In this document: positions 28,867 to 32,705 of the stretch, piece by piece
How the letters are laid out: the number at the start of each line of letters is the position of its first letter
How positions within the stretch are numbered: position 1 is the stretch's first letter
Source: Nitrospira sp.
GTDB taxonomy: Bacteria > Nitrospirota > Nitrospiria > Nitrospirales > Nitrospiraceae
Direction: 5' to 3'
NCBI GenBank assembly: GCA_029194675.1
Contig: JARFXP010000002.1
Location: 62,001-126,000, forward strand
DNA length: 64,000 nucleotides
The notes under the pieces: model-generated
What the model was told of the DNA's origin: nothing
Database searches by the model: none
The model's input: the letters and a program-made list of their open reading frames with translations, nothing else
Translations under genes and position numbers: made by a program

Positions 28867-29388
28867 ATGAAAAATCCCATTTATGACGATGTGTCTTGTA
28901 TGGAAGCGTTGTTCTCGGGACTGAGCGGTGGCCGCCCGTGGAGAGGCGAGATCGTGAGTTCTCGTATTGTCTGGGGAATGGTCCTGTTCTGTGGGCTTGT
29001 CTGTTGTGGGATGGAGAGCGTCCAGGCTGCGATGCAGAATGGTGCGATGACCGAGGATGAGGCGTCCAAGCTGGGAGAAGAGTTTGGGATTGTTGTCGGC
29101 GCCGTCGATGAAGAGATTCAAAAAGAGCTTAAACTGCAGAAACCGCAGGGCGTTGCTGTGTTCGAGGTCATCGGGAATTCACGCGCGGACTATGCAGGCA
29201 TCAAGGTTCGGTCCGTCATTAAGGAGATCGATAAGCAGGAAATTCGAAACATGACGGATTTCGGTCTGGCCATTAAGAAAGCGATGAAAGAGTGCAACTT
29301 TACCGTCGGAACCTATGAGCCTGCAGATCCAGGCGATCCGGTCGGCTGGGGGGTTAATTTTCATTTTGTCGGCTGTAAGCGAGATTAG
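28867..29388 (+). CDS. Membrane-anchored or secreted PDZ-domain protein
   Basis: A 173-residue protein with an N-terminal hydrophobic segment (IVWGMVLFCGLVCCGMESVQA) that is a signal peptide or anchor, and then one PDZ domain (EEFGIVVGAVDEEIQKEL, GVAVFEVIGNSRADYAGIKVRSVIKEID). No protease domain is present, so it probably tethers a partner through a C-terminal peptide. The C-terminal part keeps two cysteines. Its stop overlaps the GTG start of the first cytochrome gene (TAGTG). Confidence 0.8.
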   Translation: MKNPIYDDVSCMEALFSGLSGGRPWRGEIVSSRIVWGMVLFCGLVCCGMESVQAAMQNGAMTEDEASKLGEEFGIVVGAVDEEIQKELKLQKPQGVAVFEVIGNSRADYAGIKVRSVIKEIDKQEIRNMTDFGLAIKKAMKECNFTVGTYEPADPGDPVGWGVNFHFVGCKRD

Positions 29389-30725
29389 TGACGGTCGTGA
29401 TGAGTGGTGTGATGGGACATGGCCGGTTGTGGCGACGACGAGGCGCGGCAATGGCCGTCTGTCTTCTGAGCCTCATCGGCGTGCCGAGCACCAATCATGA
29501 ACGAGCAATCGCTCAAGGAGCGGATGGTCAGTCTCCGGCCGACTGGGTGGCAGAAATCGAGAAGGTCTTCATCCGTTCTGAAGAATGCAAGCAATGTCAT
29601 GAGCGTCATTACGAAGAGTGGAAGGGTGCCAGAGAGCAGACGCCGGACCTGAAGACCTTTGGCCGTGTGGATGCCGCTCTTCTTCACGGCACGTCGTTGG
29701 CGTCACCTGTATTTCGAACCGTGCTGGGTCTTTGGAGGCAGACGAATCCCACGCCTGATGAACAACGCCGCTGCCTGTCGTGCCATGTGCCTTCCATCAA
29801 CGCATTTCCCCAGCATGCCGAGAAGATTGCGATGCAAGTGATTGCCGGCACGCCAAAAATTGAAGGAATCGGCTGTGCGGCCTGCCATCTGATGAACGGG
29901 ATCGAAAAGGGTTTGAACTCACCGCCGACATTCACATTGCAGTTGGGGAACACATTCTACGGTCCATATGCCCATCCCGAGGAGAACCTTGTCCACCCCG
30001 CTGCACAGTCCGACCGGTTCCGTGAGGTCAGCTTTTGTGCCTCCTGTCATTTCGATAAGGTGAAAGATGTGACGCAGAAGAATCTGTCTGGAGAAATTCT
30101 TCAGGGCACGGTTTGTCAGGATTGCCACATGGAGCCATCGACCGGGAGCTCCACCTCTAAACGTGGTGCGCTGACTAGACCCATCGGGCGCCATTGGTTT
30201 CGTGGGGTCGTCGCTTCCGGTACCATGCTCAAGAATCGGAACCTACAGGCCGAGTGGATGCCTCGGATTGATATTGAAGTGACGAAGATCGATACGCCGG
30301 TGGAGGGAACCGGAATCGTGAAGGTCGGCAGTCTCCCGCACAGTTTCCCCGATGGGGATCCGGTATTGAAACAGTTCTTTCTGACTGTCACGGCGAAGGA
30401 TGAAACGGGCAAAGTATTAGCGGAAGAGACGAAACAGTTTGGGTTGTCGTACGACAAAATCCTTCGCGGTCCGATTCCTGATCCCTTCATTAAGGGCGGG
30501 AACACGAGGAAGGTCCCATTTTCGCTGACGCTCCCGGCCGGCCCCGCCGCCGCGTCGATAGAAGCCGTACTGACCTATTCGCTTCTTCCTACGCCCGATC
30601 CTCTCCTGCTGGAACGATATCTTGCGACTCTGCAGACCGACACAGAGCGGGAGGAGGCGAGAAAAATCATTCAGGAATATACGCAGCGGCGCTTTCTGAC
30701 GTATCGTGTCAAATCACTCTTCTAG
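29388..30725 (+). CDS. Five-haem c-type cytochrome (cytochrome c554-like)
   Basis: A 445-residue periplasmic multihaem cytochrome. A signal peptide (AAMAVCLLSLIGV) is followed by five CxxCH haem sites: CKQCH near residue 67, then CLSCH, CAACH, CASCH and CQDCH. The C-terminal third has no haem and looks like a beta domain (GIVKVGSLPHSFPDGDPVLKQFF). It should carry electrons between the periplasmic subunits encoded here and the respiratory chain. The start is a GTG coupled to the PDZ gene. A paralogue with the same haem layout follows at once. Confidence 0.9.
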   Translation: MTVVMSGVMGHGRLWRRRGAAMAVCLLSLIGVPSTNHERAIAQGADGQSPADWVAEIEKVFIRSEECKQCHERHYEEWKGAREQTPDLKTFGRVDAALLHGTSLASPVFRTVLGLWRQTNPTPDEQRRCLSCHVPSINAFPQHAEKIAMQVIAGTPKIEGIGCAACHLMNGIEKGLNSPPTFTLQLGNTFYGPYAHPEENLVHPAAQSDRFREVSFCASCHFDKVKDVTQKNLSGEILQGTVCQDCHMEPSTGSSTSKRGALTRPIGRHWFRGVVASGTMLKNRNLQAEWMPRIDIEVTKIDTPVEGTGIVKVGSLPHSFPDGDPVLKQFFLTVTAKDETGKVLAEETKQFGLSYDKILRGPIPDPFIKGGNTRKVPFSLTLPAGPAAASIEAVLTYSLLPTPDPLLLERYLATLQTDTEREEARKIIQEYTQRRFLTYRVKSLF

Positions 30726-30893
30726 CAGAATGTTGAAAAAGTCCTCCAGCATCGTTCTCGCATCGCTCAGAGGCTCAACGTACCGAAGCGTACGCCTCGC
30801 CTCTTCGCTCGCTGCGGCCTTGGCCGGTGGAATGCGCGGTCTGGCCGCGCTGGGATGGGCGGGTGAGAATGAAGGCCTTTTTGAACATTCTGC
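30725..30893. repeat. Palindromic element B (MITE-like), 169 bases, at the 5' end of a cytochrome gene
   Basis: Left end GCAGAATGTTGAAAAAG (30725-30741) and right end CTTTTTGAACATTCTGC (30877-30893) are inverted copies with a single mismatch. The left end starts on the last base of the stop codon of the first cytochrome gene. Inner words are shared with element A at 19396. The second cytochrome frame runs through the whole element without a stop. Confidence 0.75.
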
Positions 30894-32109
30894 GGTCCGG
30901 CTCAGTTTTATCGTAATAATTGGGGCGGCTGTGTTATCTGACGGTGCGTTCACATCCGTGTCCGCTCAGAACGTCACCGGTCAGTCATTGATTGAAAAAA
31001 CCTTCCCTCATTCCACCAAATGCAAACGGTGTCACGAACGCGTGTACGAGGAGTGGGAAACCTCTCCTATGGCCAAGTCCATCCATTCCCCGGCGTTCCG
31101 CGCCTCGCTTGATATTTACTTGAATTCAACGATGGGAAAAGACAAGACGCTGTGTTTTCGTTGCCATGCCCCGCATGTGCGAGAGTTTTCGGATCATGCG
31201 CAGCTCTTTGTGGATCAAGCGAAAGCGGGCGACCCCTCCTTGGATGGCGTAGCCTGCAGCCAGTGTCACCTGATCAAGTCTCTGGATCTGGGTAGACATC
31301 CCCCGGAACCGAAGTATGAGATTGGGAGCAAAACTCTCTATGGGCCCTACGGTGACTTCGTTCAGAACCTGGCCCATCAGTCCATGGAACTGAACCTGTT
31401 TCAAAAGTCGGACCTTTGTTTGAATTGTCATCAGTCAGTGCCTTCAGCGACGAACTTGGGTAAGGCCAACGACTTGCTCGGGAATTGGGACCAGAGCCGA
31501 GCCGTCAAGTCCGGCAAAGAATGTCAGACGTGCCACATGCCGCAGCAGGTCGGTGAGTCAGCCAATGGAGAAAAGAAACGTAAGATTGCAAACCATACGT
31601 TTCCCGGGCGCGTCGGTAAGCTTCGACAAGAAGCGGCGAAACTGGACGTGCAGACAAAGGTCGACGGGGACAAGACGACGGTCATGGTAAAAGTCCAAAG
31701 CCTGGTGCCGCACAACCTGCCGACCACTCATCCGGCTTGGGCTACGGTGGTATTAGGCCTTGAGGTCAAGGGTAAGAACCTCAAAACGGTATTTTCCGAT
31801 AAGCGTGTCTACGGTCGAACGTATCTGGATGCCCAAGGACAGAAGACCGTGTTCGACTTCGAAGCAGTGAAGGTGGCCGAAGACACGGTCCTGAAGCCCG
31901 AAGAGCCCAGAGAAGAAACATTCACGTTCCCGACACCGAAAGATACTAAGACGTTCGACGTCGAAGTCGGATTGAATTACGCTCCATTGACTGGCCCTGC
32001 CTCATTCCTCGAACGGGTCGAAGCCGAATCCTCAAAGGGATCGCAGGATCCGGTGTTCCAGCCAATCGAAATCGTCAAGCGGACGGAGAACGTACCGGTT
32101 GGTAAGTAG
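30730..32109 (+). CDS. Second five-haem c-type cytochrome, 5' end supplied by a repeat element
   Basis: A paralogue of the preceding cytochrome with five haem sites (CKRCH, CFRCH, CSQCH, CLNCH, CQTCH) and the same haem-free C-terminal domain. The mature part and its natural signal peptide (LSFIVIIGAAVLSDGAFTSVSAQ) lie after the repeat element. That part has no start codon of its own: between 30894 and the end of the hydrophobic stretch there is no in-frame ATG, GTG or TTG. Translation must begin inside the element (ATG at 30730 or 30832) or at a GTG at 30706 inside the previous gene. I give 30730; the ribosome site is weak for each choice. Confidence 0.85.
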   Translation: MLKKSSSIVLASLRGSTYRSVRLASSLAAALAGGMRGLAALGWAGENEGLFEHSAVRLSFIVIIGAAVLSDGAFTSVSAQNVTGQSLIEKTFPHSTKCKRCHERVYEEWETSPMAKSIHSPAFRASLDIYLNSTMGKDKTLCFRCHAPHVREFSDHAQLFVDQAKAGDPSLDGVACSQCHLIKSLDLGRHPPEPKYEIGSKTLYGPYGDFVQNLAHQSMELNLFQKSDLCLNCHQSVPSATNLGKANDLLGNWDQSRAVKSGKECQTCHMPQQVGESANGEKKRKIANHTFPGRVGKLRQEAAKLDVQTKVDGDKTTVMVKVQSLVPHNLPTTHPAWATVVLGLEVKGKNLKTVFSDKRVYGRTYLDAQGQKTVFDFEAVKVAEDTVLKPEEPREETFTFPTPKDTKTFDVEVGLNYAPLTGPASFLERVEAESSKGSQDPVFQPIEIVKRTENVPVGK

Positions 32110-32190: not shown

Positions 32191-32409
32191 ATGCCCTTCA
32201 ACCTCCCTCTCAAAGATATGAGCCTCCACGAGAAGCTTGCCGCGATGGAGTCTTTGTGGGAAGACATTGCCCGTACCCCGGAAGCCATCGAGTCCCCTGC
32301 CTGGCACAAAGACATCCTTAATGAGCGTCGCCAACGACTCGATGAAGGACAAGCTCACTTCATCGATTGGGAGGCCGCCAAAGCGGATATCCGAAACAAG
32401 GGTTTGTGA
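32191..32409 (+). CDS. Addiction-module component (antitoxin, TIGR02574-like)
   Basis: A 72-residue antitoxin-type protein with the family pattern LSLHEKLAAMESLWEDI-like N-terminus (here LKDMSLHEKLAAMESLWED) and a C-terminal arm with FIDWEAAKADIR. Such proteins are short antitoxins placed before RelE/ParE-type toxins. Its TGA overlaps the GTG of the next gene (GTGA), so the pair is coupled. Confidence 0.85.
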   Translation: MPFNLPLKDMSLHEKLAAMESLWEDIARTPEAIESPAWHKDILNERRQRLDEGQAHFIDWEAAKADIRNKGL

Positions 32410-32705
32410 GGATCAAGATCCTGGACGAGGCCCAGGATGATTTAATCCGGGGCTCTCGTTTCTATGAGGCCCGGGAATCCGGTCTTGGGGCCTACTTTCT
32501 AGACTGCTTGTTCTCAGATATTGATTCTCTTCTCTTGTGCGGCGGAATCCATCAAGTCGTATATGGTCATCACCGTTGCCTCTCCAAGCGCTTCCCGTTC
32601 GCCATTTACTCCAGCGTGGAGGAAGACATCGTTTATGTGCATGCTGTATTGGATTGTCGCAGAAATCCCTTATGGATCAGGAAACGATTGAATAGAGAGG
32701 GCTAA
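32406..32705 (+). CDS. RelE/ParE-family toxin
   Basis: A 99-residue toxin of the RelE/ParE superfamily: IKILDEAQDDLIRGSRFYEAR at the N-terminus, the strand HRCLSKRFPFAIYSSVEEDIVYVHAVLDCRRNP and a basic C-terminus. ParE members poison gyrase and RelE members cut ribosome-bound mRNA; the sequence does not decide between them. It starts with GTG coupled to the antitoxin gene. Confidence 0.87.
   Translation: MRIKILDEAQDDLIRGSRFYEARESGLGAYFLDCLFSDIDSLLLCGGIHQVVYGHHRCLSKRFPFAIYSSVEEDIVYVHAVLDCRRNPLWIRKRLNREG

Follow-up and report, generated by a model that had tools for sequence, protein, structure and literature searches.

How is a cytochrome gene translated when its signal peptide lies directly behind a palindromic repeat and has lost its own start codon? 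The question is raised by a locus in the window, a 64,000-nucleotide stretch of a Nitrospira sp. contig (JARFXP010000002.1, positions 62,001 to 126,000). Two five-haem cytochrome genes, here called cyt1 and cyt2, lie adjacent in it as a two-cytochrome operon, and the element sits in the short spacer between them:

29388-30725, plus strand: cyt1, the upstream five-haem cytochrome c gene (445 aa; open reading frame, Pfam Cytochrome_C7/C554, five CXXCH motifs)
30723-30725, plus strand: TAG stop codon of cyt1
30725-30893, plus strand: MITE-like palindromic element, long form (169 bp, imperfect palindrome, arms at 30725-30748 and 30870-30893)
30894-30966, plus strand: remnant of the cyt2 signal peptide, VRLSFIVIIGAAVLSDGAFTSVSA, with the native start codons missing (alignment with relatives L033, L035, L036 and L038)
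30967-32109, plus strand: mature five-haem cytochrome of cyt2 (stop codon at 32107-32109; Pfam Cytochrome_C554)

The cyt2 product is a cytochrome c554-like multihaem protein by its Pfam match (Cytochrome_C554, 38.9 bits against a cutoff of 20.8) and its five CXXCH motifs (CKRCH, CFRCH, CSQCH, CLNCH and CQTCH), and records labelled Nitrospira hold nearly all of its closest relatives. In the list of open reading frames, the frame runs uninterrupted from GTG30706 through the element to 32106. On the 3' side of the element, no in-frame ATG occurs until the mature protein, and the first in-frame GTG or TTG is GTG30931, which lies within the hydrophobic core of the signal. Since there is no usable start between the element end and GTG30931, a working signal peptide requires a start within or before the element.

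The element belongs to a family with 43 matches in its own 5.2-Mb genome, and 72 of 79 congeneric genomes contain it. These repeats are MITE-like in being short (121–170 bp), multi-copy, dispersed and free of a transposase gene, and the copy at the cytochrome locus has terminal inverted repeats of 24 nt each that are 88% complementary. The usual copy is a short form of ~121–125 bp; the long form at 30725-30893 carries ~48 extra bases near its right side. Its RNA was predicted to fold at –86.8 kcal/mol, compared to –66.6 ± 4.2 kcal/mol for shuffled sequences (z = –4.8). The dispersed copies, together with corresponding sites that have no element, point to mobility. When copies in the own genome were compared as separate loci, TA preceded the left end in 20 of 30, with no regular TA after the right end. 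In 10 of the 30 copies, an open frame of 100 codons or more ended in a stop codon exactly 4 nt ahead of the element ATG; for comparison, ~14% of the intergenic TA sites in the window lie at such stops, a rough baseline built on mechanical ORFs. The excess of copies at stop codons may reflect targeting or simply harmlessness, the latter being possible because the first base of the element remakes the stop. An Rfam search of the region matched no family, and a literature search found no described Nitrospira repeat of this kind. Some short-form copies (L005–L010 and L016) share further sequence past the right end (AAGGTATTCTGG...), which suggests a larger repeat unit for this subset.

Relatives with and without the element record how the start codon of cyt2 was lost. 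In L033, L035, L038 and L039, which have no element, the gene opens with GTG and then ATGATG and continues into the core LSF..IIGAAVL; the native start region of L033 reads GTGAAACTGTTGTCTACTATGATGGCG. The GTG or ATGATG start of these element-free relatives stands directly ahead of GCGGTC, and their N-terminus is MKLLSTMMA.... L032 and L036 carry the element and still have the native starts downstream of it. At the locus in the window (L031; genome G000) and in a second species (L034; G055), the element end CATTCTGCGG abuts GCGGTC.GGCTCAG, and both GTG and ATGATG are gone. One short feature marks the join:

30892-30895, plus strand: GCGG microhomology where the element end meets the native gene at the deletion junction (alignment)

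The GCGG common to both sides is compatible with a short-homology deletion and is no proof of one. An assembly error is unlikely as the cause of the junction, because G055 has the identical one. A 169-nt open frame is by itself unremarkable, and the informative part is the loss of the native start; a chance open frame as the whole story is rejected, as the relatives demonstrate that native starts were deleted. The preliminary description had called the palindrome mobile, had placed the signal of cyt2 right after it without a start codon and had read the entire element as open in frame. The comparisons bear out all three points, mobility as a conclusion drawn from copy number and empty sites. 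It had also named relatives with the same N-terminal residues and no palindromic DNA as contrary evidence. Relatives that lack the element turned out to have a different N-terminus, and the only relative sharing these residues carries the palindrome too.

Two codons within the element have to be weighed as the start:

30730-30732, plus strand: ATG in the left end of the element, 4 nt past the cyt1 stop, in frame to 32106, conserved in G055 and with the same layout in other fusions
30832-30834, plus strand: alternative in-frame ATG, with an SD-like GGTGG only 1–2 nt upstream

Judged from the sequences, cyt2 most likely starts at ATG30730, from which ~54–55 codons lead to the end of the element. 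No Shine-Dalgarno (SD) sequence precedes this codon, and the predicted hairpin leaves none of its bases unpaired. A strong SD is likewise lacking at the native starts of several relatives (among them L038 and L032), and translational coupling is therefore likely the normal mode at this locus; a ribosome terminating cyt1 would reach ATG30730. The n-region would have a net charge of +4 from ATG30730 versus –1 from ATG30832. A start at ATG30832 (or TTG30820), with a 45-residue signal peptide, appears unlikely. In its favour, the ATG continues in frame into the cytochrome, recurs in G055, is largely free of pairing in the predicted fold (0.86) and is preceded by GGTGG, but an SD spacing of 1–2 nt is too short and the n-region would be negatively charged. 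Moreover, this part of the element is missing from the comparable fusions in G013, G053 and G067, while the left ATG is in frame there. Translation from GTG30706, within the end of cyt1 and reading through the element, would give the longest open reading frame. We regard it as very improbable, as GTG30706 is a Val codon of cyt1 without an SD and is accidentally in frame also in relatives with proper starts.

The frame from ATG30730 depends on a small change within the element:

30834-30850, plus strand: 17-mer GCGCGGTCTGGCCGCGC, net +1 nt relative to the family form, which holds ATG30730 in frame with the cytochrome; also present in G055 at the same locus
30869-30916, plus strand: out-of-frame ORF MKAFLNILRSGSVLS-stop, with the long-form GGATGGGCGGGTGAG, G-rich and SD-like, before its ATG; G064/G065 have the matching ATG in frame with the cytochrome

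With the 16-mer of the family instead of the 17-mer, the frame from ATG30730 would end at MKAFLNILRSGSVLS-stop. Elsewhere, the 17-mer occurs once each in G003, G067 and G068. Between G000 and G055, mature cyt2 has a dN of 0.037 and a dS of 0.58 (dN/dS ~0.06, the same as among unfused relatives), and both fused genes retain five CXXCH motifs. These rates indicate strong purifying selection on the mature protein in both fused genes. Although 11 of 67 nt in the signal stretch differ between the two, both retain its hydrophobic core and the SVSA↓Q cleavage site.

These observations bear on whether export is damaged, with cyt2 being lost or translated from GTG30931 without a signal. An SD-like site precedes GTG30931, and long n-regions can slow export, which we counted toward this reading. 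We nevertheless consider it quite improbable: the five haem motifs are intact at a dN/dS of ~0.06, and the signal core and cleavage site persist in two species whose alleles have diverged. The preliminary description had expected 50 or so added residues, which agrees with the codon count from ATG30730, and had left a choice between a start in the repeat and poor export. The former fits better, given the shared junction, the conserved core and cleavage site and the low dN relative to dS, with use of the start being a deduction; the latter does not stand up well.

Conservation of the element itself has a different pattern. At the cytochrome locus it differs at 6 of 168 nt between G000 and G055, compared to a dS of 0.40–0.58 in the two cytochrome genes. 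It is thus more conserved across species than the flanking coding DNA, and the same holds in G053, where the native cytochrome start remains. In the leader, G000 and G055 are separated by three synonymous and three nonsynonymous changes; this count offers no support for selection on the peptide that the leader encodes, and since half of the changes are synonymous the constraint looks like a property of the DNA/RNA or of the family rather than of the peptide. What preserves the element may be mainly its structure as RNA or DNA, such as a hairpin affecting mRNA stability, with its coding role a by-product. We regard this as possible, if somewhat doubtful, and it is compatible with a start in the element. 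Its low divergence relative to the signal region and the cytochromes, and its equal conservation in G053 beside a native start, speak for it. On the other hand, it leaves the choice of start unexplained, and dispersed copies are 93–97% alike over the conserved half, so the similarity may reflect the biology of the element and not a local function.

Overall, we find it probable that insertion at the cyt1 stop and deletion of the native start led to a coupled start at ATG30730 and a leader that is cleaved off. A MITE-like palindrome would have inserted at the cyt1 stop codon, in the spacer of the two-cytochrome operon, its first base regenerating the stop (TA+G) and its ATG falling 4 nt beyond it. 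GTG and ATGATG, the native starts of cyt2, would have been lost later in a deletion that may have run between GCGG repeats and that placed the signal peptide in frame behind the element; the net +1 change within the element holds the frame. Coupled to termination of cyt1, ribosomes would probably re-initiate on cyt2 at ATG30730. The product would have a net positive n-region of ~57 residues ahead of an unchanged hydrophobic core. Because signal peptidase should cut off the entire element-derived leader, the mature cytochrome would be unaffected. We infer the order of events, and likewise coupling, export and cleavage, from comparison of sequences. Points against this account are the missing SD and the pairing of ATG30730 in the hairpin, the unusual length of the n-region, the even split of the leader changes and the separate placement of G000 and G055 in the gene tree. 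Extended signal peptides of autotransporters likewise combine a long, charged n-region with a hydrophobic core of the usual kind; the layout is similar and non-homologous, and the Nitrospira extension comes from a repeat.

Across the genus, an element match was present in the cytochrome spacer in ~22 of 90 distinct loci. The fused state needs ~4 changes on the tree of the mature gene, three of them forced by the starred branches. A single origin of all fusions is rejected on this count and on the differing junctions and element parts used, and replacement of the start by the element appears to have occurred several times, independently, in Nitrospira. Despite their identical junction, G000 and G055 do not group as sisters in the gene tree; the junction may therefore have spread by recombination. 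The fusion in G013 involves the same cytochrome and the same ATG but no more of the element than its left half (MFKKSSSGILASLRSSTYRSVRIASSRAAVLLTLVMM...). In G064/G065, the same cytochrome is captured via an ATG near the right end of the element, with a G-rich SD-like stretch.

Captures were also found at other genes, which we take to be flgH and a gene for a PHP-like protein from recognising the sequences rather than from a family search. In flgH of G053 (L148/L153), the stop TAA is followed by CACG and the element ATG, with no other plausible start, and G031 (L157) has a decayed version of this capture; the start in the element lies 4–5 nt past the upstream stop in these flgH genes. In G067 (L150/L183), the PHP-like exported protein is without the native MHN/MRN start of its relatives and begins in the element, which there appears to serve as upstream stop (TGA in ATGCTGA) as well as downstream start. 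Loci where the native start is kept, or where the overlap is 3' or by chance (L141, L142, L144–L147, L149 and L213–L216), were not counted as captures. The chances seem to us evenly balanced that the element is a portable gene junction, which lands on stops, restores the stop, supplies an ATG 4 nt later and has repeatedly become the start and n-region of exported proteins, whose leaders, being cleaved, would tolerate such an exchange. As separate observations, flgH N-termini are strongly variable across the genus and the pattern TAR-4nt-ATG is frequent among them, and a P1-family peptidase gene (L143, G039) is only a possible capture: the element lies in frame ahead with its ATG just past a TAG stop, but an in-frame ATG remains near the signal.

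In-frame fusions of small mobile palindromes are already known. Open reading frames of the enterobacterial repeats ERIC/RU-1 and RU-2 (YPAL) form in-frame fusions with genes (Delihas 2007, PMC2759123; review PMC2229807). The ERIC/RU-2 repeats are similar in being palindromic mobile repeats of 100–170 bp with TA at an end and in-frame gene fusions; the likeness is one of description, not of sequence alignment, and the phylum is another. Unlike in that case, deletion of the native start is demonstrated in Nitrospira, and capture recurs across lineages and genes. An open frame that lies in frame in protein genes is also a feature of the Rickettsia palindromic elements (RPE; Ogata et al., as summarised in PMC10969869); these are described as within gene products, whereas the Nitrospira element supplies a start and probably a cleaved leader. 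REP sequences are intergenic palindromes near upstream stops with a proposed effect on translation, and measure 14–40 nt in E. coli (RepRanger, PMC12306157). The Nitrospira element is also an intergenic palindrome close to an upstream stop codon, but its units of 121–170 bp are larger than the REP unit, have long inverted ends and code for a leader. New here are the demonstrated loss of a native start, the recurrence and the stop-4 nt-ATG layout.

The locus provides a before-and-after case, with parallels, of a mobile repeat taking over the start of a gene. The captures suggest that exported proteins are affected because the extra residues fall within a cleaved leader. Annotated start sites in Nitrospira operons can be wrong where such repeats lie, and the fusions offer a natural test of the length limit of signal n-regions and of start-codon exchange by termination-coupled translation. 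Downstream of the cytochrome, at 32191-32705, two small ORFs resemble a toxin-antitoxin pair; by eye we take them to be an addiction-module protein followed by a RelE/ParE-like protein.
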